NCBI RefSeq assembly: GCF_034661235.1
Contig: NZ_CP141059.1
Location: 620,001 to 684,000, forward strand
Direction of reading: 5' to 3'
DNA: 64,000 bases
From: Nocardioides bizhenqiangii
GTDB taxonomy: Bacteria > Actinomycetota > Actinomycetes > Propionibacteriales > Nocardioidaceae
This document shows, in pieces, positions 3,288 to 16,740 of this stretch; the first letter of the stretch is position 1, and every line of letters begins with the position of its first letter. The notes under the pieces were generated by a model. That model saw nothing but the letters and a program-made list of their open reading frames with translations, searched no databases and was not told the DNA's origin. The position numbers and the translations under genes are program-made.

Positions 3288-3320
3288 GCGCGGCCCCGCC
3301 AAGGACTGACGGGGCCGCGC
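3288..3320 (-). terminator. Strong GC hairpin after the GSDH-LamG gene
   Basis: A perfect 11-bp inverted repeat, GCGCGGCCCCG (3288-3298) and CGGGGCCGCGC (3310-3320), with an 11-base loop, begins 13 bases after the minus-strand stop at 3333. There is no T-tract, which is common for actinobacterial terminators. It probably ends the ten-gene liv operon. Confidence 0.7.
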
Positions 3321-3332
3321 TCGAGGGGTGGA

Positions 3333-5624
3333 TCAGCCTCCTCGGGTGAGGCGGCGGTACTGCCGCGCCACCTCTGACCCGCTGAGGTCGGTGTCGAAGA
3401 ACATCAGCGTGTCCATCCGGCAGTTGCACGGGTTGCGCTCGGTGCCGTTCTGGGGGAACGAGCCGCCGATCTTGATGCCGCGCGGGTCCGTCGGCGACGT
3501 ACCGCTGCCGTCGAGCTGCCAGGGGTCGCCCGCGTTGGTGTAGAAGCCGTCGAGGGCCTCACCGTTGCGGTAGAGCGCCATCTCACCGGTCGTGTAGTCG
3601 AAGGTCGCGGCGATGTGCACCCACTCGTCCTGCGGGAGCAGGTCCCGCCAGTCCTCCGACGCGGCGAACGTCTGCGACGCACCGGTGTCGATCCGCCGGC
3701 CGAGCGCGACGAGACGCAGCTCGCCGTTGACCTGGATCAGCTCCAGCAGGGCGCGGACGCCGTGTCCGTCGGAGTTGCCGCTGAGCACTCCGGCGAGACC
3801 GATGGCGTTGTAGCCGGCCGTGGGGTTGGTGCCGGTCATCTTGAACCAACCCATCACCGTGATGCCCTTCGCGCCGTTGAAGGCCGAGAGCGACTCCTCA
3901 CCGTCCGCGTCCCACACGCCGGCTTTCCACGCCTGGCCCGTGGGCGACTCGGCGGCACTGTGGATCTGCAGCGCGTTGTTGCTGCCCGGGTAGGCGCCGT
4001 CGTCGACGCGCATCCGCTCACCGCCGTTGATCAGCTGCAGCAGCGTCCCGGACGACCCCTGGTCCTCCTCGTAGGCGTCGTTGGCCGCGAACGGGTGCTC
4101 GAAGTCGTACGCCGCCACCAGGTCGTCGGCCAGGCCCGGCTCGATCTCCTTCGGGACGGGCGCCCGCTTGGTGTCGACGACCTTCCAGATCTTGCCGTTG
4201 CCCTTGGCGAGCAGGAACAGGTTGTTCTCGGAGTCGGTGCCGAACCGCAGGTCGATCCGACCGTCGCCGACGAAGTCGGGCATCCGCATCCGGGTGCCGT
4301 CGGTGTCGTACAGCGCGAGCTCGTGGATCGGCGCCTCGGTCGCGGCGTCGTCGTCCATCTCCTCCAGGTCGGTGTAGAAGACACGCCCCTCGACCAGGTC
4401 ACCGAAGACGTACTTGCCCTTCAGACCGCTGAGGTCGCCACGGTGGACGAGGCCACCCGAGATCGCGTGCCCGGAGTCGGAGTTGCACGGCCAGTTCGCC
4501 GGCGGGTCGTGGTCGTAGGAAGCGACCGGGTAGTCGTAACCGGCCTGCGCCATCTCATCGGTGAGCGGGTAGAGGTAGCACTGGTTCTCGTTCCGGTAGG
4601 CGAGCCGGCCCTCGATCACCGGCCAGCCGAAGTTGTCGCCGGCGTCGACGTCGTAGACCGCCTCGACCGCGTGCTGGCCGATGTGCCCGAGGAACATCCG
4701 GTGCTCACCGCCGACGTCCCAGCTGAACCGGTGCGGGTCGCGCATACCGACTGCGTAGATCTCGCCGAGCGCACCCGGCTCGTCGACGAACGGGTTCGTC
4801 TCAGGGATGCCGTACTGGCCGTTCGGGCTGTTGTCGCCCAGCGGGTCGATCCGCAGGATCTTGCCCGACGGGGTCGACATGTCCTGCGGCACGTCGCTGC
4901 TGACACCGATGCCGCCGTCGCCGACGGCGAGGTAGAGCAGGCCGTAGTCCTCGTCACCCGGAGCAGCGGTGTGGTTGAAGTCGATCTGCTGGATCGCGTG
5001 GATCTGGCCACCGAACCGGAACCGGAAGATCTCCCGGCTGGTGCCCGCGAAGGTGTCGGCCGACGGGTCGTCGGCGGTCCACTCCGTCACCACGCTGGTC
5101 ACCGAGCTCGACGTCAGCCGTTGCGGCGGGTACGTCGACTCGCCCGGCGCCGTCGGCACCTCGGTGTGGACGGTGTACAGCTTGCCGTTCTCACCGAACT
5201 CCGGGTGGAAGGCCGCGAAGCCGAAGCCGGACCCCAGTCCGCGCCAGGACAGGAAGTGGGGGAACCGCTGCTTCACGTCGAGGTAGACGTGCTGCTGCCC
5301 GTCCTCGAGCAGGTAGAGCGTGCCGTTGAGGTCCGGCACCTGCAGGCGGCCCGATCCGTCCGGCAGCTCGCCGACGTAGTTGATCCGGTTGTGACGGCTG
5401 CCGATCCGGCCATCGGTCACGGGCCCGTTCGGCGTCGATGCCGGCAGCTGGGCGTACTCCTCGAGGACGAGACCGAGCGTGGACGGCACCGGGTCCTGGG
5501 GGATCGGATCGGTGATGGGTGTGTCGAAGTGGTCGTCGGCGGTCGCCGGCGACGCGAGCGGGTTGAGGGTCGCGGCGAGCAGCAACGCTGCCGCGGCACC
5601 CACCCACGATCGGGTCGTGCGCAT
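3333..5624 (-). CDS. Secreted PQQ-type sugar dehydrogenase (GSDH fold) with C-terminal LamG domain
   Basis: A 763-residue exported protein. Residues 1-29 are a signal peptide ending about ASPATA. Residues about 45-470 form a glucose/sorbosone-dehydrogenase beta-propeller (PDLNGTLYLLEDG; GLGSGFGFAAFHP; GDGGIG; GKILRIDPLGD; VGMRDPHRFSWD). Residues about 510-763 are a concanavalin-like LamG module (VTVMGWFKMTG region, DEWVHIAATFDY, ALYRNGEAL). In the family the propeller oxidises aldoses or related sugars with PQQ, and LamG modules bind glycans. The ATG at 5624 has an AAAGGAA site at 5633-5640. It is the last gene of the operon and is followed by a strong hairpin. No PQQ synthesis genes are in the window, so cofactor supply is unknown and PQQ use itself is inferred. 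Confidence 0.82.
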   Translation of the reverse strand: MRTTRSWVGAAAALLLAATLNPLASPATADDHFDTPITDPIPQDPVPSTLGLVLEEYAQLPASTPNGPVTDGRIGSRHNRINYVGELPDGSGRLQVPDLNGTLYLLEDGQQHVYLDVKQRFPHFLSWRGLGSGFGFAAFHPEFGENGKLYTVHTEVPTAPGESTYPPQRLTSSSVTSVVTEWTADDPSADTFAGTSREIFRFRFGGQIHAIQQIDFNHTAAPGDEDYGLLYLAVGDGGIGVSSDVPQDMSTPSGKILRIDPLGDNSPNGQYGIPETNPFVDEPGALGEIYAVGMRDPHRFSWDVGGEHRMFLGHIGQHAVEAVYDVDAGDNFGWPVIEGRLAYRNENQCYLYPLTDEMAQAGYDYPVASYDHDPPANWPCNSDSGHAISGGLVHRGDLSGLKGKYVFGDLVEGRVFYTDLEEMDDDAATEAPIHELALYDTDGTRMRMPDFVGDGRIDLRFGTDSENNLFLLAKGNGKIWKVVDTKRAPVPKEIEPGLADDLVAAYDFEHPFAANDAYEEDQGSSGTLLQLINGGERMRVDDGAYPGSNNALQIHSAAESPTGQAWKAGVWDADGEESLSAFNGAKGITVMGWFKMTGTNPTAGYNAIGLAGVLSGNSDGHGVRALLELIQVNGELRLVALGRRIDTGASQTFAASEDWRDLLPQDEWVHIAATFDYTTGEMALYRNGEALDGFYTNAGDPWQLDGSGTSPTDPRGIKIGGSFPQNGTERNPCNCRMDTLMFFDTDLSGSEVARQYRRLTRGG

Positions 5625-5697
5625 GGAATGGTGTTCCTTTCCGAGAGGGTTTCAGCGAGCAGTGCCGACGACGGCCGGCAGCAGCGTGGCGGGAGGC

Positions 5698-6405
5698 TCA
5701 GCCGGAGACACGCTCGACCCCGATGACAGAGAAGTGCCTGGTGCGGCCGTAGTTGTCGAACGATCCGAAGCCGACGCGACCGCCGGCGTACGTCGTGTCG
5801 GTTGCGGTCATCAGTGGTTCGGACGAACCGTCGACGTAGACGGCGATCTCGCCGGTCGTCGCGTCGTAGTCGACCCGGACGTCGTGCCAGTCGGTGTCGT
5901 CGATGGCGGGCGGCGCGCCGACCGAGCCGTTCCATTGGTCGTCGATCCGCCGCCGGTCCGCGTTGTCGACCACGAAGATCCCGTTGTGCGGGTAGATCGT
6001 GTTGTCCTGCGAGAGGTGCGCGTAGTAGAAGCGGGTCGGTGACTGGTAGTTCCACACCACGATGACGTCGCGGTTGCTGAACTCGACCGGCTCGTCGATG
6101 CGCACCTCGGCGGTGATGCTGACCGAGGACAGCTCCGGACCCTGGGTGACGACGGCGTACTCGAACGGGCGTCGCGGTCCGCCGGGATTGGTGCCGCGCT
6201 CGGTGAGCACGACCTGGCCCCGCTCGAACGCCCACTTCGCGTCGGTGAGCGGGTCCCAGTGCTGCGGCGTGGGTGCGGCTTGCACCCGGACCGTGGGTGG
6301 GGCGACGACCTCGTCGGCCGCCGCCCCACCAGGGGCAACCACCAGTGCTGTCCCGAGAACGGCACCGGCGGCGAGGCCGGCGGCGCGCTTGCGTGTGCGA
6401 TGCAT
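5698..6405 (-). CDS. Secreted LamG/DUF1080-like glycan-binding or hydrolase-fold protein
   Basis: A 235-residue protein with a clear signal peptide (residues 1-28, basic MHRTRKR start, cleavage after GGAAA). The rest is a single jelly-roll domain (WDPLTDAKWAFERGQVVLTERG; VEFSNRDVIVVWNYQSP; DTDWHDVRVDYDATTGEIAVYVDG; GRVGFGSFDNYGR) typical of the concanavalin-like and 3-keto-disaccharide hydrolase (DUF1080) group. The ATG at 6405 is served by GGAAGGA at 6414-6420. It sits between the isomerase-fold gene and the secreted dehydrogenase in one operon, so it probably acts outside the cell on the same glycan substrate. Lectin versus hydrolase function cannot be settled by eye. Confidence 0.65.
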   Translation of the reverse strand: MHRTRKRAAGLAAGAVLGTALVVAPGGAAADEVVAPPTVRVQAAPTPQHWDPLTDAKWAFERGQVVLTERGTNPGGPRRPFEYAVVTQGPELSSVSITAEVRIDEPVEFSNRDVIVVWNYQSPTRFYYAHLSQDNTIYPHNGIFVVDNADRRRIDDQWNGSVGAPPAIDDTDWHDVRVDYDATTGEIAVYVDGSSEPLMTATDTTYAGGRVGFGSFDNYGRTRHFSVIGVERVSG

Positions 6406-6454
6406 TTGCTCAGTCCTTCCGAGTAGGCGAGATTCCCCCATGGGTCCGGGTTGG

Positions 6455-7366
6455 CTACACGTGCGGCTCCACGAGCTCGACGTAGCGGCGGGCGAGGGTG
6501 TCGAGGACGGCGTGGCCGTCGGCCTCCCACACCTCGGCGTTGAAGATCTCGACCTCGACGTCGCCGCGGTAACCGGCAGCGGCGACGCAGCGGGACAGAT
6601 GGGCGAAGTCGATGTGTCCGTCGCCCATCATCCCGCGGGAGAGCAGCGCGTCCGGGGGGAGCGGCGTGATCCACTCACACACCTGGTAGCTCGCGATCCG
6701 CCCGGCAGCACGGGCGATCTGGTCCTCGATGCCCGGCTCCCACCAGACGTGGAACGTGTCGACGACGACACCGACTGCCTCGGTGGGCAACGGCTCGGCG
6801 ATGTCGAGCGCCTGCGCGAGCGTGGAGACGACGCCGCGGTCGGCCGCGAAGATCGGGTGCATCGGTTCGATGGCGAGGCGCACGCCCACCTCGAGCGCGT
6901 GCGGCACCAGGTCCGCGACCGCCTGGGCGGCGCGGGCACGAGCACCGCGCAGGTCCCGGTCGCCGGCGGGCAGACCGCCCGGCACGAGCACCAGGCACGG
7001 TGCACCGAGGGCTGCCGCCTCGTCGAGCGCGCGGAGGTTGTCGTCGTGACGTGACCGCCGCTCCGCACCGTCCGCCGCCGTGAAGAACCCGCCCCGGCAC
7101 AGGGAGGAGACCCGCAGGCCGGCGTCGCGGATCATCGCCGCCGCAGCGTCGACGCCCGCTACGGCGAGCGGCTCGCGCCAGACGCCGATCGCCGGGATGC
7201 CGTGCGCGGCGCAGGCTTCCACGGCCGTCCGCAGCGACCACCCGTCGACGGTCTTCTGGTTGAGCGACAGCCGAGCCAGCCGCGGGTCGCCCGGTGCGGG
7301 TGTGTCCATCCGCGCGGGCGCACGCGACGGCACGTCGAGCGCGGTCGTGTCTTGTGGGGTGCTCAT
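6455..7366 (-). CDS. Sugar phosphate isomerase/epimerase-fold (AP-endonuclease-2 TIM barrel) protein
   Basis: A 303-residue Xylose-isomerase-like TIM-barrel protein. Metal-ligand type motifs are seen in RLAIEPMHP (Glu), VVDTFHVWWEP (Asp and His), MGDGHIDFAHL (His) and DVEVEIFN (Glu). Family members include hydroxypyruvate isomerase, IolE/IolI and 3-epimerases. The ATG at 7366 overlaps the preceding DUF993 stop (ATGA). With the oxidoreductase and DUF993 protein upstream, it probably isomerises or eliminates an oxidised sugar intermediate. With a glycerate kinase at the same locus, a hydroxypyruvate-isomerase-like step is one possibility (inference). Confidence 0.8.
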   Translation of the reverse strand: MSTPQDTTALDVPSRAPARMDTPAPGDPRLARLSLNQKTVDGWSLRTAVEACAAHGIPAIGVWREPLAVAGVDAAAAMIRDAGLRVSSLCRGGFFTAADGAERRSRHDDNLRALDEAAALGAPCLVLVPGGLPAGDRDLRGARARAAQAVADLVPHALEVGVRLAIEPMHPIFAADRGVVSTLAQALDIAEPLPTEAVGVVVDTFHVWWEPGIEDQIARAAGRIASYQVCEWITPLPPDALLSRGMMGDGHIDFAHLSRCVAAAGYRGDVEVEIFNAEVWEADGHAVLDTLARRYVELVEPHV

Positions 7367-8529
7367 CGTGCCGCCCCGGCGGACTCGAGCCACAGCCGCA
7401 TCCGGTGCGCCGCCAGTGCCGGGTCGGGCAGCAGCCGGGCGTCGTTGGCGAGTGCGAACAGCCGGCCGAGGTGGACCACGCTGCGCGCCGACTGCAGGCC
7501 GCCGACCATGGTGAAACCGGGCTGGTGGCCGCAGAGCCACGCGAGGAACGCGATGCCGGTCTTGTAGTGCCAGGTGGGCGTCTCGAACACATGCCGCGAG
7601 AGGGGCAGGGTGGGCGCCATCTCGGCGTCGTACGTCGCGAGGTCGCCGCGGTCGAGCGCGGCCAGCGCCGCCGAGGCTGCCGGGGCGATCGCCGCGAAAG
7701 CCCCGAGCAGGGCGTCGGAGTGGTGGCTGCCGTCGCCGCGGATGAGGTCGGGGTAGTTGAAGTCGTCGCCGGTGTAGAGCCGTACCCCGGCCGGCAGCGC
7801 GGCGCGGAGCGCCGTCTCGTGCTCCGCGGACAGCAGCGAGACCTTCACGCCGTCGACCCGGTCCGCGTGCGCCGCGACCAGCTCGAGGAAGGTCGCCGTC
7901 GCCTCCGCGACGACGGGCGACCCCCAGTACCCGCGCAGCTGCGGGTCGAACGCCTCGCCGAGCCAGTGCAGGATCACGGGCTCGCGCACCTGGCCGAGCA
8001 GGTCGGCGTAGACCTTGAGGTAGTCGTCGGGGCCGGTGGCGGCCGCGGCCAGCTGGCGTGACGCCATGACGATCACCTGCGACCCGGTCGACTCGACGAA
8101 CCCGACCTGGTCGAGGTAGGCCTCGCGCACGTCTGCCACCGTCCGCAGGTCGGCGCGGTGGTCGGTGCCCGCACCGGACGCGATCCGGGCGCCCAGGTCC
8201 TGTGCCTGCTCGGCGCTGCGCCGGACCAGCTCCTGGACCGCGGGCCAGTCCAGTCCCATGTTCCGTTGTGCGGTGTCCATCGCCTCGGCGACGCCGAAGC
8301 CGTAGCGGAACAGGTGGCGCCGGAAGCCGAGAGTGGCGTCCCAGTCGACGACCGCCGGCGCCCCGGGCACGTTCTCCCCGCGTGGATCGGCGACCACGTG
8401 GGCCGCGGCGAACGCGACCCTGCTGGTGAACGGCTGGGGGTGCTCGACCCACGCGCGGTGCTCGTTGAGCACGACGCCCTCCCACCCGCCGTCGGCGAGC
8501 GGGATGTCGACCCGGTCGGTGGGCGTCAT
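7363..8529 (-). CDS. DUF993 family protein (dihydrodipicolinate-synthase-like aldolase)
   Basis: A 388-residue protein matching the DUF993 group, distant relatives of dihydrodipicolinate synthase/N-acetylneuraminate lyase TIM barrels. Recognisable stretches are FRYGFGVAEAMDTAQRNMGLDW (about 74-95), VILHWLGEAFDPQLRGYWGS (185-204) and DGVKVSLLS (226-234). Lys229 sits where the Schiff-base lysine of the class I aldolase family would be. Its function is not established in what I know. ATGA overlaps with genes on both sides put it in a tightly coupled trio: dehydrogenase, DUF993, isomerase. A retro-aldol or dehydration step on a keto-sugar acid is the natural guess. Confidence 0.8.
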   Translation of the reverse strand: MTPTDRVDIPLADGGWEGVVLNEHRAWVEHPQPFTSRVAFAAAHVVADPRGENVPGAPAVVDWDATLGFRRHLFRYGFGVAEAMDTAQRNMGLDWPAVQELVRRSAEQAQDLGARIASGAGTDHRADLRTVADVREAYLDQVGFVESTGSQVIVMASRQLAAAATGPDDYLKVYADLLGQVREPVILHWLGEAFDPQLRGYWGSPVVAEATATFLELVAAHADRVDGVKVSLLSAEHETALRAALPAGVRLYTGDDFNYPDLIRGDGSHHSDALLGAFAAIAPAASAALAALDRGDLATYDAEMAPTLPLSRHVFETPTWHYKTGIAFLAWLCGHQPGFTMVGGLQSARSVVHLGRLFALANDARLLPDPALAAHRMRLWLESAGAAR

Positions 8530-9671
8530 CGCGCCGGCAGCTCGATCCGGCGGCCCTCCGCGGACGACCGGAGGCCGGCGTCGACGAGGCGCAGTCCGCG
8601 CACGCCCGCGGCGAAGTCGTACGGGTGCGGCCGGCCGTGGTGCACGTCGAGCAGGAACTGCTCCCACTGCGCGCGGAAGCCGTTGCCGAAGGTGCGGTTG
8701 TCCGGCACCTCCATCCACTGGGCACGGAAGTCCTCGGCGGTGGGGACGTCCGGGTTCCACACCGGCATCGGCGTCAGCTCCCGCGGCTGCACGCGGCAGC
8801 CGAACAGGCCCGCGACCGCCGAGCCGTGGGTGCCGTCGACCTGGAACTCGACCAGCTCCTTGCGATCGACCCGCACCGCCCAGGACGAGTTGATCTGGGC
8901 GATCACGCCACCGGCCAGCTCGAAGATGCCGTACGCCGCGTCGTCGGCCGTGGCTTCGTACCTCCGGCCCTCTTCGTCCCAGCGTTCGGAGATGTGGGTC
9001 ACGGCCTTGGCGGTGACCGCCTCGACCGCGCCGAACAGGTTCTCGAGCACGTAGTTCCAGTGGCAGAACATGTCGAGGACCATCCCGCCGCCGTCCTGGG
9101 CACGGTAGTTCCAGCTCGGCCGTTGGGCCGGCAGGTAGTCGCCCTCGAACACCCAGTAGCCGAACTCGCCGCGGACCGAGAGGATCTGGCCGAAGAAACC
9201 GCCGTCGATCAGCCTCTTCAGCTTGATCAGCCCGGGCAGGTAGAGCTTGTCGTGGACGACGCCGTTGACGATGCCGTGCTTCTCCGCGGCCGCGACCAGC
9301 TCCTCGCCCTCGGCGACGGACTCGGCGATGGGCTTCTCGGTGAAGACGTGCCTGCCGGTGGCGGCAGCCTTGAGGATCGCCTTCTTCCGCTCGGTGGTCA
9401 GCTGCGCGTCGAAGTAGATCGTCGCCGGGTCCTCGGCGAGCACGGCGTCGAGATCCGTCGACCAGTCCGCGATCCCGTGCTCGTCGGCCATCCGGGCCAG
9501 CTTGTCGGCGTTGCGGCCGACGAGCACCGGCTCCACCTGGAGCCGACCGCCGTCCGGCAGCGGGACCCCGCCGTCATCGCGGATCGCCAGGATCGAGCGG
9601 AGCAGGTGCTGGCGGTAGCCCATCCGGCCGGTGACGCCGTTCATCAGGATGCGGTAGGTGGTTTCAGGCAT
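8526..9671 (-). CDS. Gfo/Idh/MocA family NAD(P)-dependent oxidoreductase
   Basis: A 381-residue oxidoreductase. The N-terminal Rossmann domain begins RILMNGVTGRMGYRQHLLRS, with a GxxGRMG variant of the nucleotide loop. The family EKP motif appears as VFTEKPIAES near residue 100, and a C-terminal alpha/beta domain follows (GGMVLDMFCHWNYVLENLFG). The N-terminus is longer than usual before the first loop, as in the subgroup that travels with DUF993. It starts 33 bases after livF and overlaps the DUF993 gene by four bases. It probably oxidises a sugar, polyol or glycoside hydroxyl imported by the linked transporter; the substrate is unknown. Confidence 0.85.
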   Translation of the reverse strand: MPETTYRILMNGVTGRMGYRQHLLRSILAIRDDGGVPLPDGGRLQVEPVLVGRNADKLARMADEHGIADWSTDLDAVLAEDPATIYFDAQLTTERKKAILKAAATGRHVFTEKPIAESVAEGEELVAAAEKHGIVNGVVHDKLYLPGLIKLKRLIDGGFFGQILSVRGEFGYWVFEGDYLPAQRPSWNYRAQDGGGMVLDMFCHWNYVLENLFGAVEAVTAKAVTHISERWDEEGRRYEATADDAAYGIFELAGGVIAQINSSWAVRVDRKELVEFQVDGTHGSAVAGLFGCRVQPRELTPMPVWNPDVPTAEDFRAQWMEVPDNRTFGNGFRAQWEQFLLDVHHGRPHPYDFAAGVRGLRLVDAGLRSSAEGRRIELPAR

Positions 9672-9703
9672 GTCTGTCCTCGTCGTGGGTCCGGGGTCGC
9701 CGG

Positions 9704-10453
9704 TCAGCTCTTGGTGGTCACGGGCTTGGGTCGGCCGCCGAGGTAGAGCTCGGCCAGCTGCGGGTCCCGGAGCAGCTCGGCGGCGGGACCGGAGATGTGG
9801 ACCCGGCCCAGGTCGAGCACGCAGCCGAGGTCCGCGGTCTCGAGCGCCCGGCGGGCGTTCTGCTCGACGAGCAGCACGGCGGTCCCGGCATCCCGCATCC
9901 GCACCACCTGCTCGAACACGGTGGCGGTCGCCTTGGGGTCGAGGCCCATCGAAGGTTCGTCGAGCAGCACCACCCGCGGGCTGACCATGAGCGAACGGGC
10001 GAACTCCACCTGCTTCTGCTGCCCGCCCGACAGCGCGCCGGCGAGGGCACCCCACCGCTCCGCGACCACCGGGAACAGGTCCTTGACGAACCCGATCCGC
10101 TCGGCGATCTCGGCCTTGTCGGTCAGGGAGTAGGCGCCGAGGCGGACGTTCTCCTCGACCGTCATCTCCTTGAACACGCTGTGTCCCTGGAGGACGTGGG
10201 AGAGGCCGGCGTGCAGCATCTGCTGCGGATTGCGGTCGGTGACGTCCTTCCCGGCCACCCGGATCGTCCCTGCCCGGGGCCGCAGCATGCCGCTGGCGAC
10301 CTTGAGCACGGTCGACTTGCCGGCACCGTTGGGTCCGACCAGGCAGACCACCGCGCCCGGCGGCACCTTGACCGTGAGACCGCGGAGCACCAGCGCCGCG
10401 CGTCCGTAGCCCGCCTCGATGTCCTCGAGCTCGAGCAGGTACTCAGATGCCAA
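9704..10453 (-). CDS. livF: Branched-chain-type ABC transporter ATP-binding protein LivF
   Basis: A 249-residue ATPase with Walker A GPNGAGKST, signature LSGGQQKQ, Walker B VVLLDEPSMGLDP, and VLLVEQNARRAL in place of the usual switch-His stretch (LVEQN is the LivF hallmark). It overlaps livG by 11 bases. LivF partners LivG on the inner face of the LivHM channel. The name reflects family; here the cargo is probably not a branched-chain amino acid, since the operon continues into sugar-type catabolic genes. Confidence 0.9.
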   Translation of the reverse strand: MASEYLLELEDIEAGYGRAALVLRGLTVKVPPGAVVCLVGPNGAGKSTVLKVASGMLRPRAGTIRVAGKDVTDRNPQQMLHAGLSHVLQGHSVFKEMTVEENVRLGAYSLTDKAEIAERIGFVKDLFPVVAERWGALAGALSGGQQKQVEFARSLMVSPRVVLLDEPSMGLDPKATATVFEQVVRMRDAGTAVLLVEQNARRALETADLGCVLDLGRVHISGPAAELLRDPQLAELYLGGRPKPVTTKS

Positions 10454-11219
10454 GGTAGGCCTCCAGGACTCGGGGGTCGTTCTGCACGACCGATGGCGTT
10501 CCCTCGCAGATGGGCCGGCCCCGGTCGAAGACGACCACGTGGTCGGACAGGCTCATGACGAGCTCCATGTTGTGCTCGACGACGATGAACGTGCGGCCCT
10601 CGGCGTTGAGGGACCTGATCAGGCCGGCGATCCGGTCGATCAACGCCGGGTTCACACCGCCGGCGGGCTCGTCGAGCATGATCGTCTCCGGCTCGGCCAT
10701 CAGGACTCCTGCCAGCTCGAGCAGCTTCTGCTGCCCGTAGGACAGGTCACGCGCCTCCGTGCGCTCGAGGTGCTCGATCCCGACCCTGGTGAGCAGCTCC
10801 CGCGCCCGGTCGATGTCGGCGGGATGGTGGGCAGAACGGACCAGGCGCGGGAGGCTGGTCGCCCGCACGGCGGCGAGCACGTTCTCCAGCACGGTCATCC
10901 GCGGGAAGATCCGGCACAGCTGGAAGCTGCGCCCGATGCCCGCCCTGGCGATCCGGTGGGGAGCCCTGCCCGTGATGTCCGTGCCGTGGAACGTCACGGT
11001 GCCGGCGTCGGGTCGGATCATGCCGGTGACGCAGTTGAAGAACGTCGTCTTGCCCGAGCCGTTGGGCCCGATCAGGGCGTTGACCTTGCCGCGGTGGAAG
11101 CCGACCGATGCGCCGTCGACGGCCTTGACGCCGCCGTAGGACTTGCGGAGCCCGTCGGTCGCCAGGGCGATCTCGACCTCCGTTGCCGGCGTCGCGGGGT
11201 GTTCCTGGGCGGTGGTCAT
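10443..11219 (-). CDS. livG: Branched-chain-type ABC transporter ATP-binding protein LivG
   Basis: A 258-residue ATPase: Walker A GPNGSGKTT, the LivG-specific GIGRSFQLCRIFP stretch, signature LSYGQQKLLELA, Walker B TIMLDEPAGGVNP and the switch region FIVVEHNMELV. The ATG at 11219 overlaps livM's stop (ATGA), and its own end overlaps livF. It is full-length with all catalytic motifs intact. Confidence 0.9.
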   Translation of the reverse strand: MTTAQEHPATPATEVEIALATDGLRKSYGGVKAVDGASVGFHRGKVNALIGPNGSGKTTFFNCVTGMIRPDAGTVTFHGTDITGRAPHRIARAGIGRSFQLCRIFPRMTVLENVLAAVRATSLPRLVRSAHHPADIDRARELLTRVGIEHLERTEARDLSYGQQKLLELAGVLMAEPETIMLDEPAGGVNPALIDRIAGLIRSLNAEGRTFIVVEHNMELVMSLSDHVVVFDRGRPICEGTPSVVQNDPRVLEAYLGI

Positions 11220-12319
11220 GAGGGTGCCCCTTCCGTGACGCGCCGTGCGGTGCCGGGCTGCTCCTCGTCCTTGCGTCGCTCCTCGGCGAGCTCGGCCTGG
11301 CTGACCTCGCGGATCGATGAGGCCTGGGGCCGGAACCGTCGGATCTGCTGGCTCACCGCCGGGATGATGCCCTCCGGCATGAACAGCACGACGATGCCGA
11401 GCAGGAGCCCCATCGCGACGATGTGGAACTGCGAGTCGCCGTACTCGGCCTTGAAGAACTCGACGGCGTAGCCGACGATCACGGCTCCCAGCAGCGGACC
11501 GAAGAGGCTGCGGATCCCGCCGAGGAGACTCATCAGCACCATGTAGGCGCCGGCCAGGATCGAGAACTGGAACACCGGGTCGAGGAAGCCGAACCACAGC
11601 GCGTAGAGGCCGCCGCCGAGGGCGGTGATGAAGGCCGAGATCACGAACGCGACCAGCTTGTAGTTGAAGGTCGGGACGCCGAGGGCCTGCGCCTTGTCCT
11701 CGTCCTCGCGGATCGCCTTGAGGCCGATGCCGAACTGCGAGCGGTCGATGAGCCACCACAGCAGCAGCGCGCCGGCGAGGAGTGCCGCGTGAAGGTAGTA
11801 GAAACGCTCGTGCTGCTCGGGGCGGAGCACCTCCGGGCCGAAGGGGCGGGGGATCCGCAGGCCGTTGGAGCCACCGGTGAGCTCGCTCCAGGACTGGAAG
11901 ACCAGCAACAGGATCAGCACGAGTGCGATCGAGACGATCACGAACGACGCGCCGCGCACCCGGAGGCTGGCGATGCCGATGGGGACCGCCAGGACGGCGA
12001 CGAACAGGCTGCCGCCGACCAGCGCGACCCACGGGTCCCAACCGGTCTCGATGATCAGCAGGCCGGTGGCGTAGCCGCCGAGGCCCGAGTACGCCGCGTG
12101 CCCCAGCGACATGTAGCCGGTGAGCCCGCCCATGAAGTTCCAGCCGGTGGCGAGCACTGCGTAGCTCATGATCACGACGCCGACCGAGAGGATGAACGGG
12201 TTCGCGGCCATGCTCGGGAAGGACAGGATCGCGCCGGCGAGGACGAGCAGGCCGAGCACCTTGAGCGCCACGGCCAGGCCGTTGCGGGACGTGCGTGCGT
12301 GCTCAGAAGCGCTGGGCAA
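11216..12319 (-). CDS. livM: Branched-chain-type ABC transporter permease LivM
   Basis: A 367-residue permease with about ten hydrophobic segments. It contains the LivM family stretch NFMGGLTGYMSLGHAAYSGLG, of which GYMSLGHAA is the key part, and a cytoplasmic EAA-like loop around LGVPTFNYKL. It starts with TTG at 12319, 17 bases inside the end of livH; no ATG is available before the first membrane helix. The C-terminal 40 residues are a charged cytoplasmic tail (RREVSQAELAEERRKDEEQ type), longer than in classical LivM. Confidence 0.87.
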   Translation of the reverse strand: MPSASEHARTSRNGLAVALKVLGLLVLAGAILSFPSMAANPFILSVGVVIMSYAVLATGWNFMGGLTGYMSLGHAAYSGLGGYATGLLIIETGWDPWVALVGGSLFVAVLAVPIGIASLRVRGASFVIVSIALVLILLLVFQSWSELTGGSNGLRIPRPFGPEVLRPEQHERFYYLHAALLAGALLLWWLIDRSQFGIGLKAIREDEDKAQALGVPTFNYKLVAFVISAFITALGGGLYALWFGFLDPVFQFSILAGAYMVLMSLLGGIRSLFGPLLGAVIVGYAVEFFKAEYGDSQFHIVAMGLLLGIVVLFMPEGIIPAVSQQIRRFRPQASSIREVSQAELAEERRKDEEQPGTARRVTEGAPS

Positions 12320-13181
12320 GACGACCTCCGAAGAATCCCTGGGGACGGACCATCAGGGTGAGGAACAGGGCGATGTAGAAGAACGTCTGCGCCCAGGTGG
12401 TGCCGAGCGGGATCTGCAGCAGGCTCTGACCCAGACCGAGCAGCATCGCCGCGATCGCGGCGCCGGGGATGCTGCCGAGACCACCGACGACGATGATCGC
12501 CATCAGCGGGCCGATCCAGTGCCAGTGCAGCGAGGGGTAGATGGTCGCGTCGAGCGACAGCGCGGTGCCGCCGATCGCCGCAGTGGCCAGGCCGATGCCG
12601 AACCCGTAGCCGGCGATCCGGTCGGTGTTGATGCCGACCAGGCGGGCCGCCTCGGGGTGCTGGATCGTGGCCCGCAGCGCCTGTCCGAACTTGGTCCGCG
12701 TGAGCAGCAGGAAGAGCGCCAGCAGCGAGACGGCAGCAAGGCCGAAGGCGATCAGCTTGACGACGGCGATGTTGGCTCCGAAGATCTCGAAGTCGCCGCC
12801 GCCGTAGGACAGCCGCACGCGCCGCTGGGTGCCGGACCAGACGAAACCGAGCATCCCCTCGATCACCAGGGCGATCGAGAAGGTGAGCAGCACCGACATC
12901 ATCGTCAGGGACGACGGGTTGAGCCGGCTGATCAGGAGTCGCTGGACCGCGACACCCATGACGAAGAACAGGGGCACCGTCCCGATCAAGGACACCAGCG
13001 GATCGATCCCGGTCTCGGTGGAGAACCACCAGGCGAGGTAGGCGGCGAGGATCAGGAACGCGGAGTGCGCGATCATCACCACCCGCATCACGCCGAAGTA
13101 GAGGGTCAGCCCGGCCGCCAGGAGGGCGTAGAGCCCTCCCAGCAGCACGCCGAGCACGATGCTCTGCAGGAGCAGGGACAT
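12303..13181 (-). CDS. livH: Branched-chain-type ABC transporter permease LivH
   Basis: A 292-residue permease with eight or so membrane helices. Family marks include LGVLLGGLYALLAAGLTLYFGVMRVV at the N-terminus (GLYALLAAGLTL), SALSL-like segments and GGLGSIPGAAIAAMLLG near the C-terminus. It starts 22 bases after livK. It forms the channel with LivM. No anomalies were seen. Confidence 0.9.
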   Translation of the reverse strand: MSLLLQSIVLGVLLGGLYALLAAGLTLYFGVMRVVMIAHSAFLILAAYLAWWFSTETGIDPLVSLIGTVPLFFVMGVAVQRLLISRLNPSSLTMMSVLLTFSIALVIEGMLGFVWSGTQRRVRLSYGGGDFEIFGANIAVVKLIAFGLAAVSLLALFLLLTRTKFGQALRATIQHPEAARLVGINTDRIAGYGFGIGLATAAIGGTALSLDATIYPSLHWHWIGPLMAIIVVGGLGSIPGAAIAAMLLGLGQSLLQIPLGTTWAQTFFYIALFLTLMVRPQGFFGGRLAQRF

Positions 13182-13203
13182 GGGGTTCAGGCCTCGCTTC
13201 GGG

Positions 13204-14427
13204 TCACCAGCGGGGCTTGACCGGGATGAACTCGGCCTCGGCCAGGTCCTCGGGCAGGACGATCCGGATCTCCCCGTCGACCCACTGCTGGATCATGTGC
13301 GCGCCCTGCGGCCGGCCCTGGTCGTCCCACGTCAGGGGACCGACGACAGTGTCGACCTCGTTCTCACGGAGCCAGTCGATCAGCTGCTGCTGGCACTCCG
13401 GATCGGGGTCCGCACACTCGACAGCCTCGACTGCCGCCGCAACCACCTGGCCGGTGGTCCACGCGTTGGCCTGGTCCTCGGCCGGCGGCTCGCCGTGCAA
13501 CTCGGTGTAGAAGTCCACGAACTCCTTGTTGGTCGGGTAGTCCGAATGCGGCGTGTAGCCAGTGGGCGCGATGATGCCCTCGGTGTTGCCGCCGATCGCG
13601 CTCTCGAACTCCGGCTCGGTAGGCGCCGTCGAGAACGCGGCCATCTCCGGCTGGTAGTCGAGCTGCTGGAGCGCCAGGATCATGTTCACGGCGTCCTGGT
13701 ACTGCGTGCCGCCCACCACCATGTCGGCGTCGCTGTCGGCGATCTTGGCCGCGATGCTGTCGAAGTTGGTCGTGTTCGGCGGGTAGACCTCGTCGACCAC
13801 GATCTCGACGCCCATCTCCTCGAGCCGGTCCTTGAGTCCGTAGGCCGTGCCCATCGCGAACGGGTCGTCCATGGACGCGACCGCGGCGGTCTCGGGCCGC
13901 TGGTCGGCGGGCATCTGCTCGATGTGGTCGGCCAGGTAGTTGTAGTGGTCGTCCGCCACGGCCGGTGCCGCGTAGAAGAGGTTGTCGAAGCCCTGCTCGA
14001 AGACCTCCGGCGCGGCGCCCGCCGGCTCGACGAACAGGAACCCGTAGTCCTGCGCCACCTGGGCGGCGGGGATCACGAGGCGCGTCGAGAACGGGCCGAC
14101 GACGAGGTCGACCCCTTCCTGGTTGATCAGCCGCTCGTAGTCGGAGGCCACCCGGTCGGCGCTCGACTGGTCGTCGAGGATCTCGAGCTCGACCTGCTTG
14201 CCGAGCAGACCGCCGTTCTCGTTGATGTACGCGGCCCAGGCCTCGTAGCCGCGTTGGATGCCCTTGCCGGGTTCGGAGTAGTCACCCGTCAGCGGCAGGG
14301 AGATGCCGATGGTGATCGTGTCGTCGTCGCCGGACCCGCCTTCGTCACCGGAGCTGATGCAGCCGGTGAGGGCGAGGCTGCCGGTGACGGCGAGTGCGGT
14401 GAGCCGGAGGCGGGGGGAGACCTTCAT
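13204..14427 (-). CDS. livK: LivK-type substrate-binding lipoprotein
   Basis: A 407-residue extracytoplasmic receptor (Peripla_BP_6). It has a lipoprotein signal peptide with lipobox LTGC at about residues 20-23, then the type I two-lobe fold (TITIGISLPLTGDYSEPGKG; ILDDQSSADRVASDYERLI; VVGPFSTRLVIPAAQVA; VVVGGTQYQDA). The ATG at 14427 follows a GAGGAG site at 14433-14438. It is the first gene of the ten-gene operon, directly behind the tandem LacI-type operators. Its receptor class takes amino acids, but also aromatic acids, amides and polyols; the operon context favours a sugar-derived ligand (inference). Confidence 0.88.
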   Translation of the reverse strand: MKVSPRLRLTALAVTGSLALTGCISSGDEGGSGDDDTITIGISLPLTGDYSEPGKGIQRGYEAWAAYINENGGLLGKQVELEILDDQSSADRVASDYERLINQEGVDLVVGPFSTRLVIPAAQVAQDYGFLFVEPAGAAPEVFEQGFDNLFYAAPAVADDHYNYLADHIEQMPADQRPETAAVASMDDPFAMGTAYGLKDRLEEMGVEIVVDEVYPPNTTNFDSIAAKIADSDADMVVGGTQYQDAVNMILALQQLDYQPEMAAFSTAPTEPEFESAIGGNTEGIIAPTGYTPHSDYPTNKEFVDFYTELHGEPPAEDQANAWTTGQVVAAAVEAVECADPDPECQQQLIDWLRENEVDTVVGPLTWDDQGRPQGAHMIQQWVDGEIRIVLPEDLAEAEFIPVKPRW

Positions 14428-14451
14428 GTCGCTCCTCGAAGAGTGGGACGT

Positions 14452-14471
14452 AAGCGCTTTCGCAAGCGCTT
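14452..14471. promoter_or_regulatory. Tandem LacI-family operators AAGCGCTT x2
   Basis: Two identical 8-bp palindromes AAGCGCTT lie at 14452-14459 and 14464-14471, centres 12 bp apart. Each is part of a GAAAGCGCTT-type core like the consensus bound by LacI/GalR proteins. They cover the predicted liv transcription start, so the divergent LacI protein probably blocks livK transcription here. Confidence 0.8.
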
Positions 14472-14477
14472 TCAGGT

Positions 14478-14507
14478 ACTCTATGCACACCGATCGGCCT
14501 GTGGCAA
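14478..14507 (-). promoter_or_regulatory. Predicted promoter of the liv operon
   Basis: On the minus strand, TTGCCA (14507-14502) and TAGAGT (14483-14478) are separated by 18 bases. Transcription would begin about 14471, inside the operator pair. The match is by eye only. Confidence 0.5.
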
Positions 14508-14560
14508 GGGTCACAACCCCGTCCATGGACGCCGATCCTCTATCGCGAAGGGGTGGGGCG

Positions 14561-15592
14561 TTGGCCAAGCCGCAGTCGAGCGTCCGGCTCCAGGACGTCG
14601 CCGAGGAGGCGGGGGTCTCGATCGCCACGGCGTCCCGGAGCCTGTCCGGCACGGCCGGCGTGAGCGAGTCCGTGGCCGAGCGGGTCCGGGAGGTCGCGCA
14701 GCGGATGGGGTACGTCGTCAACGTGCACGCCCGCAGCCTGGCCGCGGGCACGTCTCGCTCGGTCGGGCTCGTCGTGCACGAGATCGGCGACCCCTACTTC
14801 GCGGAGATCGCGAGCGGTGTGCTCCGCGTCGGGACCCGCGAGGGACTGACCGTGCAGATCTGCCACAGCGGCCGCGACCCGGACCGCGAGCTCGAACAGA
14901 TCAGGATGCTCGTGGCCAACCGCGTGGGCGCCATCATCATCGCCGGGTCGGGGTTCGTCGACCCGGCGTTGCAGGCCGCCGCGAAGCGGGACCTGCAGGC
15001 CTACCGCGACCAGGGTGGCCGGGTCGCCGTCATCGGGCGGCACCACCTCGGGGTCGACGCCGTCCTCCCGGAGAACGTCAAGGGCGGGCGGGCGATCGCC
15101 GACCACCTGATCGGTCTGGGTCATCGGCGGATCGCCGTAGCCACGGGCTCGACCGCACTGACAACGATCGCCGACCGCCTCGCCGGTGTCGAAGAGGCGT
15201 GCGCGGAGGCCGGTATCAGCTTCGCCGACGTACCCGTGGTCGTCGCCGAGTTCACCCGCGAGGGCGGCAAGCTCGCGGCCGAGGAGATCCTGCGCGATCA
15301 CCCCGACGTCACGGCGGTGCTGTCGCTGAACGACGACATGGCCATCGGCGTCCTGTCCGTGCTCCGGGCACGCGGCGTCGCGGTGCCGGAGCGGATGTCG
15401 GTGTCGGGGTTCGACGACGTGGCAGTGGCCGGCGACCTCGCTCCTTCGCTCACCACGATCCGGCTGCCGATGGTCACGATGGGCGAGCTCGCCCTCGAGC
15501 TGGCGCTGAAGGCTCCGGGCAACCGACCGCGTCGTCGCTCGGCCGGCCACGAGCTCGTGGTGCGCGACTCGACGGCGCCGCCGCCGGCATGA
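14561..15592 (+). CDS. LacI-family transcriptional regulator
   Basis: A 343-residue repressor. The helix-turn-helix is at residues about 7-30 (VRLQDVAEEAGVSIATASR, hinge-proximal RSLAAGTSRSVGLV). A periplasmic-binding-like effector domain follows (VVHEIGDPYFAEIASGV; GRHHLGVDAV; VLSLNDDMAIGVLSVL; MSVSGFDDVAVAG). TTG at 14561 is chosen because AAGGGG lies 8 bases upstream; an in-frame ATG at 14525 would add 12 residues but lacks a ribosome site. It is divergent from livK, and the AAGCGCTT pair lies between. Its stop overlaps the glycerate kinase start (ATGA), so it is co-transcribed with that gene. It is the probable repressor of the liv catabolic operon, with autoregulation possible. Confidence 0.88.
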   Translation: MAKPQSSVRLQDVAEEAGVSIATASRSLSGTAGVSESVAERVREVAQRMGYVVNVHARSLAAGTSRSVGLVVHEIGDPYFAEIASGVLRVGTREGLTVQICHSGRDPDRELEQIRMLVANRVGAIIIAGSGFVDPALQAAAKRDLQAYRDQGGRVAVIGRHHLGVDAVLPENVKGGRAIADHLIGLGHRRIAVATGSTALTTIADRLAGVEEACAEAGISFADVPVVVAEFTREGGKLAAEEILRDHPDVTAVLSLNDDMAIGVLSVLRARGVAVPERMSVSGFDDVAVAGDLAPSLTTIRLPMVTMGELALELALKAPGNRPRRRSAGHELVVRDSTAPPPA

Positions 15593-16740
15593 CCGGACGG
15601 ACCGCGCGGGTGATGCTGGCGCCCGACAAGTTCAAGGGCTCCCTCGACGCGGCCGGGGTCGCGGCAGCCGTCGCCGGTGGGCTCCGGCGGACCCGGCCGG
15701 ACGTGGAGGTCCGCTGCCTCCCGGTCGCCGACGGCGGTGACGGCACCCTGTCGGCCGCGCGCGCCGCCGGCTTCGCGCTGGTGCCGGTGGCGGTGCACGG
15801 GCCGACGGGTGAGCCGGTCGACACCGCGTTCGCGCGGCGCGGCGCGACGGCGGTGGTCGAGATGGCCGACGCCTGCGGGCTGGGCCGGCTGCCGGGTGGG
15901 GTCGGCGCGCCGCTGACCGCGTCGTCCCGGGGGCTCGGTGAGGTCCTCGTCGCGGCACTCGACGCCGGCTGCCGGGAGCTGGTGGTGGGCATCGGCGGCA
16001 GCGCGAGCACGGACGGCGGCGCCGGGATGCTGGCGGCTCTCGGAGCACGGGTGCTGGACGAGACCGGAGAGGTCGTCGCCGACGGTGGAGCGGCGCTCGC
16101 AGCGGCGGTGACCCTGGACGTTGAGGACCTGCACCCCGGCCTCCGGGACGCCAGGATCCTCGTCGCCTGCGACGTCGACAACCCGCTGACCGGCCCCGAG
16201 GGTGCGGCCGCGGTCTACGGTCCCCAGAAGGGCTGCACGCCCGCGGACGTCGTCCTCCTCGACGCGGCCCTCGATCACTGGTCCGACGTCGTCGCCGACG
16301 CCGCCCCGGAGGTTGCCGACGCCCGCGACGTCCCGGGCGCCGGCGCCGCCGGCGGCGTCGGCTTCGGGCTGCTCGCCGTGCTCGGAGCGGAGCCGCGCCC
16401 CGGCATCGACCTGCTGCTCGAGCTGCTCGGTTTCGACGAGGCGCTGGAGGACGTCGACCTTGTCGTCACGGGCGAGGGCTCCTTGGACGACCAGAGCCTG
16501 CGAGGCAAGGCGCCCATCGGAGTGGCCACCCGCGCCCGGGCCGCCGGCATCCCCGTGGTCGCCGTCTGCGGCCGGCGTCTGCTGACCGACGCCGAGCTCC
16601 GTGCCGCAGGCATCCTCCGCGCCTACGCGCTGACGGACATCGAGCGCGATCTCGACACCTGTCTCCGCTCACCCACGCCTCTCCTGGAGCGCATCGGCCA
16701 GCAGATCGGGCACACCCACCTCCCCCCGACTGCCAACTAG
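15589..16740 (+). CDS. glxK: Glycerate kinase (type II, GarK/GlxK family)
   Basis: A 383-residue enzyme that phosphorylates D-glycerate with ATP, giving 2-phosphoglycerate in the GarK/GlxK family. Motifs are PDKFKGSLDA at residues 9-18, the substrate loop GIGGSASTDGGAG (about 131-143), ACDVDNPLTGPEGAA and the C-terminal GEGSLDDQS...GKAP. It is translationally coupled to the LacI gene. Its presence at this locus implies that the linked pathway delivers glycerate, for example via hydroxypyruvate or tartronate semialdehyde. The symbol follows family resemblance. Confidence 0.87.
   Translation: MTGRTARVMLAPDKFKGSLDAAGVAAAVAGGLRRTRPDVEVRCLPVADGGDGTLSAARAAGFALVPVAVHGPTGEPVDTAFARRGATAVVEMADACGLGRLPGGVGAPLTASSRGLGEVLVAALDAGCRELVVGIGGSASTDGGAGMLAALGARVLDETGEVVADGGAALAAAVTLDVEDLHPGLRDARILVACDVDNPLTGPEGAAAVYGPQKGCTPADVVLLDAALDHWSDVVADAAPEVADARDVPGAGAAGGVGFGLLAVLGAEPRPGIDLLLELLGFDEALEDVDLVVTGEGSLDDQSLRGKAPIGVATRARAAGIPVVAVCGRRLLTDAELRAAGILRAYALTDIERDLDTCLRSPTPLLERIGQQIGHTHLPPTAN

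Follow-up and report, generated by a model that had tools for sequence, protein, structure and literature searches.

Several described systems share parts with the locus studied here. The usual cargo of LIV-type (HAAT) importers is amino acids or amides. All five of their components, a substrate-binding protein, two permeases and two ATPases, were present by Pfam, but among the matches listed, the curated cut-offs for Liv and Urt proteins were reached by none of the liv genes. Class I aldolases of the DHDPS/NAL type have a TIM barrel fold, and the Schiff-base lysine of the DHDPS superfamily lies on the sixth barrel strand. The DUF993 protein of the locus resembles these aldolases in the TIM barrel fold of its predicted model and in a lysine on the sixth strand, but it belongs to its own Pfam family (PF06187), is 388 aa long and gave no significant profile match to three members of the DHDPS family. 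The canonical myo-inositol cluster (iolBCDEG and iolJ) has Gfo/Idh and AP_endonuc_2 TIM barrel proteins in common with the locus, and it adjoins the same genes in one family of relatives (f23). However, the locus is devoid of iolB, iolC and iolD, and its genome encodes no IolD over the cut-off. We know of no DUF993 step in the canonical inositol pathway. Gfo/Idh and AP_endonuc_2 proteins are also common to the locus and the levoglucosan dehydrogenase and 3-keto-sugar pathways; the latter have DUF1080 hydratases.

We analyzed a 64,000-nt stretch (positions 620,001 to 684,000), referred to as the window, of the 4.55 Mb single-contig genome of Nocardioides bizhenqiangii. A block of ten genes runs on the minus strand from livK (14427) to a GSDH-LamG gene (3333). 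The first five were assigned by Pfam to a LivK-type lipoprotein with a Peripla_BP_6 domain (13204..14427), LivH-type (12303..13181) and LivM-type (11216..12319) permeases, and LivG-type (10443..11219) and LivF-type (9704..10453) ATPases; the TTG starts of livM and livF are uncertain. These are followed by a Gfo/Idh/MocA NAD(P) dehydrogenase (8526..9671, Pfam), the DUF993 protein of the class I aldolase type (7363..8529; 580.7 bits, gathering score 24) and an AP_endonuc_2 xylose-isomerase-like TIM barrel protein of the isomerase or epimerase type (6455..7366; PF01261, 123.7 bits). We call these three genes the trio. The last two genes encode secreted proteins, namely a LamG/ConA-like protein of 235 aa recognized by its predicted fold (5698..6405) and a 763-aa protein consisting of a GSDH domain (PF07995, 73.2 bits) and a C-terminal LamG domain (PF13385, 41.1 bits; 3333..5624). 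A LacI-family repressor (14561..15592) and a glycerate kinase (PF02595, 423.7 bits; 15589..16740) are encoded divergently on the plus strand.

The ten genes likely form a single transcript. ATGA overlaps join livM to livG, gfo to the DUF993 gene and the DUF993 gene to the isomerase gene, and the TTG starts, if used, give overlaps of 17 bases between livH and livM and 11 bases between livG and livF. The gaps are 22 bases between livK and livH, 32 bases between livF and gfo, 49 bases between the isomerase and LamG-like genes (13 bases with an earlier ATG) and, the largest, 73 bases between the LamG-like and GSDH genes. These coordinates agree with the earlier note, which described same-strand genes with ATGA overlaps or short gaps, none exceeding 73 bases. 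The note also placed a perfect 11-bp hairpin at the end of the operon. A GC-rich hairpin is indeed predicted after the last stop codon (3288..3320, minus strand; −33.3 kcal/mol, z −3.9, none of 200 shuffles as good), with 14 pairs in the predicted fold in place of 11. It has no T tract and a terminator scan found none, so we regard it as a putative terminator.

To evaluate conservation, relatives were collected by a DUF993 scan with one genome per species, and the best 80 of at least 573 confirmed relatives were kept. Because these are the best DUF993 matches, the sample leans to close relatives. Gene presence was scored from tblastn matches, with identity thresholds of our choosing, in the 67 loci of at least 17 kb. 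The trio was present in every one of them. All five liv genes were also found in 47 of the 67, and thus the case named in the earlier note as refuting, in which DUF993 and liv genes never co-occur, did not arise. All ten operon genes were kept in 28 of the 67 loci, which upholds the claim of a dedicated gene set. The counts for the other parts were 33 for GSDH, 31 for the LamG-like protein, 53 for LacI and only 20 for glycerate kinase, and the last count gives no support to the proposal that glycerate is a necessary end product. When 55 further loci were added, 130 of the 135 had the trio. Of the other five loci, four break off where the absent gene would fall, and in the fifth (L077) the isomerase was not found in the stretch. 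DUF993 was present in 120 of the 394 genomes sampled from the class. On a quick DUF993 tree of 134 of the 135 rows, one having been dropped by the length or stop rule, the liv link needs at least eight changes, four of which are forced.

The sequence AAGCGCTTTCGCAAGCGCTT (14452..14471) between lacI and livK comprises two LacI-type palindromes 12 bases apart, giving a tandem operator of the form AAGCGCTT-N4-AAGCGCTT. It is placed just downstream of the promoter-like TTGCCA-N18-TAGAGT (14478..14507, minus strand; one consensus match found against 0.4 expected). The repressor has the HTH and periplasmic-binding domains of the LacI family and a palindromic operator near its own gene, which starts with TTG at 14561 and has an in-frame ATG at 14525. 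Judging from the sequence, this tandem site is the putative binding site of LacI. The operator has one exact copy in the genome. When up to three mismatches were allowed, it had two matches in the whole genome against nine for a reversed control pattern, and therefore only the exact copy counts.

Of the 80 relatives, 39 carry exact copies of the operator, which to judge from their positions lie where livK or gfo begins. The operator was also exact in nine of the 394 genomes of the class, all nine with DUF993, and the reversed control had no exact match in these 394 genomes. In five of the nine, the site is away from DUF993, at a separate LacI-liv operon that in three cases also has GSDH; the trio is encoded at another genomic position. 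This arrangement indicates two modules, one for uptake with the secreted proteins and one being the catabolic trio, which are joined in one operon in N. bizhenqiangii. In four Micromonospora loci (L093, L098, L100 and L101), the liv-GSDH-LamG block and the trio are adjacent as two units.

The secreted proteins track DUF993 also where their genes are not linked to it. Orthologs were called in the 394 genomes at E ≤ 1e-60 for GSDH-LamG and E ≤ 1e-20 for the LamG-like protein. A GSDH-LamG ortholog was present in 17 genomes, the 16 others being 52–77% identical to the protein of the window. DUF993 was present in 16 of these 17 genomes and in 10 of the 10 with a LamG-like ortholog, against the background of 120 in 394 (hypergeometric probabilities of 3e-8 and 5e-6, respectively, with relatedness ignored). 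The sole exception, G421, lacks DUF993, and its GSDH ortholog is interrupted by an internal stop. At another locus (L199), the trio, LacI, GSDH and the LamG-like protein occur with an NMT1-type importer that replaces liv. The gene set is far beyond chance. The odd mix of families, and nothing further, would favor a chance neighborhood of unrelated genes, and we consider this explanation extremely improbable in view of the 28 loci with all ten genes, the unique operator and the co-occurrence of unlinked parts.

The earlier note proposed outside oxidation or binding as a first step, and external oxidation by the GSDH protein did not find support. The candidate for the catalytic histidine, the invariant His209, could be matched to the HFGGRL motif of E. 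coli YliI only by visual inspection, and the aligner places another residue there. No PqqE over the curated cut-off was found in the host genome; none of 14 control genomes exceeded this cut-off either, so the test is without a positive control. There is a substantial chance, somewhat short of even, that the GSDH protein is a binding protein or a non-redox propeller and not a PQQ dehydrogenase. Its best PDB sequence match, the Hedgehog-interacting protein, points in this direction, as does the PqqE result with the same reservation, whereas a PF07995 score well over the cut-off of 25, the possible alignment of His209 by eye and the possibility of PQQ scavenging speak for the dehydrogenase. The LamG-like protein matched no Pfam family at E 0.001, and its predicted fold, of low model confidence, is of the ConA/LamG type. 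Among many ConA-like folds, it may resemble that of 3-keto-glycoside hydratases of the BT2157 type. PF06439, the family of 3-keto-disaccharide hydrolases/hydratases, was absent from the matches of 11 LamG-like members at E up to 1, a level at which HMMER filters can drop weak matches.

The closest named relative of the DUF993 protein among the matches listed was that of Nocardioides sp. HM23 (98% identical). The structure was modeled from 14 sequences (pLDDT 86.8), and the best structural match was 4dnh (52% identity), followed by dihydrodipicolinate synthases with E values of 9e-10 and weaker. The entry 4dnh is SMc04132 of Sinorhizobium meliloti, a relative of DUF993 with the PDB name uncharacterized protein. 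A table in a study on PhaR lists SMc04132 as uncharacterized and SMc04133 as a putative oxidoreductase (PMC12542648).

Lys229 was invariant in all 22 aligned DUF993 sequences, which we chose from a larger set. In the model it lies in the strand 225–230, by our count the sixth of the barrel, and it may therefore correspond to the Schiff-base lysine. When profiles of DUF993 and three DHDPS-family proteins were aligned, also with regard to the T-T/G-E carboxylate-binding motif, the match was not significant, so the link to DHDPS rests on the fold and the lysine position. These two features agree with the aldolase-like character that had been proposed for DUF993. Alternatively, DUF993 might be a dehydratase or hydro-lyase of this superfamily, like ketodeoxyglucarate dehydratase, with the C–C cut made elsewhere. 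Both reaction types occur in the superfamily, and a second DHDPS-family enzyme with an MR-type enolase lies near the trio in five loci of one family (f20) and in L155, a pairing that resembles sugar-acid dehydration routes. We consider a dehydratase possible but rather unlikely, as there is no other aldolase among the ten operon genes; this argues only weakly for cleavage by DUF993, since the role could be filled by aldolases encoded outside the operon.

The Gfo/Idh protein has the nucleotide motif GxxGxxG and K113 (in EKP), D200 and H204, all invariant in nine of nine aligned sequences; we take the last three to be catalytic. Levoglucosan dehydrogenase (NF052479) was its best NCBIfam match, yet its score of 61.6 bits fell short of the cut-off (650), and the cut-off of the inositol dehydrogenase IolG (TIGR04380) was not reached either (54.7 against 355 bits). 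Its solved relative 3oqb has the PDB name oxidoreductase. In the isomerase, E167, D203 and E273 were invariant in 11 of 11 aligned sequences. The fourth expected metal-ligand site is His in six and Gln in five, the protein of the window having Gln; these residues may correspond to an E-D-H-E set of metal ligands. The isomerase scored 20.3–35.8 bits against the models for IolO, Hyi, OtnI and D-psicose epimerase and reached none of their cut-offs (300–353 bits). The solved relatives 3ju2, 3qc0 and 7vpf are named sugar or xylose isomerases in the PDB. The families of the sugar-type oxidation enzymes proposed in the operon were borne out.

The importer is interchangeable, and liv is not a fixed part of the system, since its place near the trio is taken in relatives by transporters of the NMT1/SsuA-like, sugar, TTT or MFS types. 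NMT1/SsuA-like importers were found in all five fetched loci of family f7, sugar-type ABC importers in several loci and TTT transporters in three proteobacterial plasmid loci. We examined 19 plasmid regions, two of them without annotation. Seven of the 19, from Roseateles, Sinorhizobium, Rhizobium, Paracoccus and Janthinobacterium, encode a short-chain dehydrogenase and an acyl-CoA dehydrogenase alongside DUF993 and the isomerase. A CoA-transferase accompanies them in six of these seven and glycerate kinase in four, and the annotation of these stretches includes no Gfo gene.

These observations bear on the substrate class. If the Liv importer tells the class, the substrate may be an amino-acid-like or acidic compound whose polyol part is handled by the sugar-type enzymes. 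Consistent with this, the best PDB matches of livK were Leu/Ile/Val-binding proteins, the trio is accompanied in relatives by transporters typical of acids (NMT1/SsuA-like and tricarboxylate, TTT), and some relatives add acyl-CoA dehydrogenase, mostly with CoA-transferase. However, the regulator is LacI-type and other relatives have sugar-type ABC importers near the trio, and we think an acidic or amino-acid-like substrate doubtful. Further sugar-type neighbors in relatives are GH30, PfkB and ROK kinases, and the MR-type enolase with the DHDPS-family enzyme. Many of the neighbors scanned in loci without liv, such as PEPCK, NUDIX, P450, BCCT and cell-wall binding proteins, look unrelated.

Inositol genes are found near the trio in part of the relatives. 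In family f23, matches to iolC, iolJ-like genes, iolD or iolA were near the trio in 17 of 18 loci, with IolD 6–10 kb from DUF993. One of these loci (L167) was read over its whole length, and there an iolB-iolD-iolA-iolE-iolG series is convergent to the trio. IolB and IolD of L167 and IolC of another locus (L154) were over the curated cut-offs, and the IolE- and IolG-like proteins were below them. Among the matches listed for 350 genomes, 77 of the 104 that have DUF993 also had IolD, as did 66 of the 246 that lack DUF993, with relatedness ignored. In 38 of the 77, IolD lay within 50 kb of DUF993 (20 in f22, 17 in f23 and one in f39). The 350 genomes were taken to be the lower-numbered of the 394, an assumption that fits all 143 IolD positives. 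In two f22 regions that we read, housekeeping-type genes lie between the trio and the iol genes. The adjacency of iol genes requires two changes on the DUF993 tree, and the f23 arrangement forms one clade. In the host genome, the best IolD match scored 207.7 bits against a cut-off of 715, which was exceeded in three of 14 control genomes. Two congeners with DUF993 (G135 and G213) are likewise without IolD. Because IolD is absent from the host, the operon does not feed into the canonical inositol pathway here.

Taken together, the locus is a real, conserved and undescribed-looking catabolic operon of known folds. It is probably a substrate-induced, LacI-controlled operon for a polyhydroxylated compound, such as a cyclitol, sugar or sugar-acid derivative, with DUF993 as the C–C cleaving enzyme. 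We infer the reactions and their order from the protein families. LacI would occupy the tandem operator, where the livK transcript begins, until the substrate or an early intermediate releases it. The compound would be imported by the Liv-type importer, a hydroxyl group oxidized to a ketone by Gfo/Idh, and the keto compound epimerized or isomerized by the metal-dependent TIM barrel enzyme. DUF993 would then split a C–C bond via a Schiff base on Lys229, and in this host the C3 product could be converted to 2-phosphoglycerate by the divergent glycerate kinase. The GSDH-LamG and LamG-like proteins may prepare or capture the compound outside the cell. Inositol-like cyclitols are our leading guess for the substrate class, and sugar acids come next. 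The catabolic system outlined in the earlier note therefore stands in its gene set, aldolase-like DUF993 and oxidation enzymes, and finds no support in the order of its route, external oxidation by GSDH and glycerate as a necessary end product; the tandem operator, the division into two modules and the nearby inositol genes in relatives are new here.

A broader and more speculative proposal, which we consider improbable, is that inositol-type cyclitols, or a derived keto acid, are degraded by an undescribed route that is IolD-independent and unphosphorylated, with C–C cleavage by DUF993. In such a route, Gfo/Idh would form an inosose-like ketone, the TIM barrel enzyme would rearrange it and DUF993 would split the product by Schiff-base chemistry. 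The route would extend across Actinomycetota and Pseudomonadota with swappable importers, and the secreted GSDH and LamG proteins would be accessories in part of the group.

In a partial literature search, which is a weak test of absence from print, we found no paper naming DUF993 or PF06187. The same partial search yielded no relevant paper for the PDB codes of the trio relatives and no description of the system, in line with the claim that it is undescribed. DUF993 is a large family without known function, having at least 7998 members (all 7998 scored candidates matched), and solved structures related to all three trio enzymes exist, none with a specific function named. As the gene set is compact and the operator unique, a reporter screen could reveal the substrate. 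The identity of this substrate would give function to all three trio families at once.

The tandem operator of the window, a LacI-type palindrome pair upstream of livK, also heads stand-alone LacI-liv operons in five related loci (L143, L144, L145, L146 and L147), and in all of these the trio of Gfo/Idh dehydrogenase, DUF993 protein and AP_endonuc_2 isomerase is located at another genome site. In L147, AAGCGCTT is present in three consecutive copies. A GSDH gene accompanies the LacI-liv operon in L143, L144 and L145. A GSDH orthologue interrupted by an internal TGA was found in one sampled genome (G421:C1:34405-35784) that is without DUF993, perhaps reflecting decay following loss of the trio. 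In the window, the minus-strand genes at 999-2686, read by eye as the binding protein and ATPase of a polar amino acid ABC transporter, apparently have no relation to the operon.

At L067:13101-18213, genes for SIS, ROK, PfkB, class II aldolase and sulfatase proteins come after the trio and glycerate kinase, a gene neighbourhood resembling those for sulfated sugars or amino sugars. Six loci (L117, L118, L120, L121, L126 and L128) are located on plasmids, with Roseateles, Sinorhizobium, Rhizobium and Paracoccus as hosts. They represent a CoA-linked version of the DUF993 system with no annotated Gfo gene: DUF993 and the isomerase lie with a short-chain dehydrogenase gene on one side and ETF genes on the other, acyl-CoA dehydrogenase is present, and CoA-transferase with enoyl-CoA hydratase (five of six) and glycerate kinase (four of six) also occur.

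An MR-type enolase and a second DHDPS-family enzyme are encoded near the trio in the family f20 loci L148, L193, L194, L195 and L197 and in L155, which suggests that these genomes encode a step of sugar-acid dehydration.
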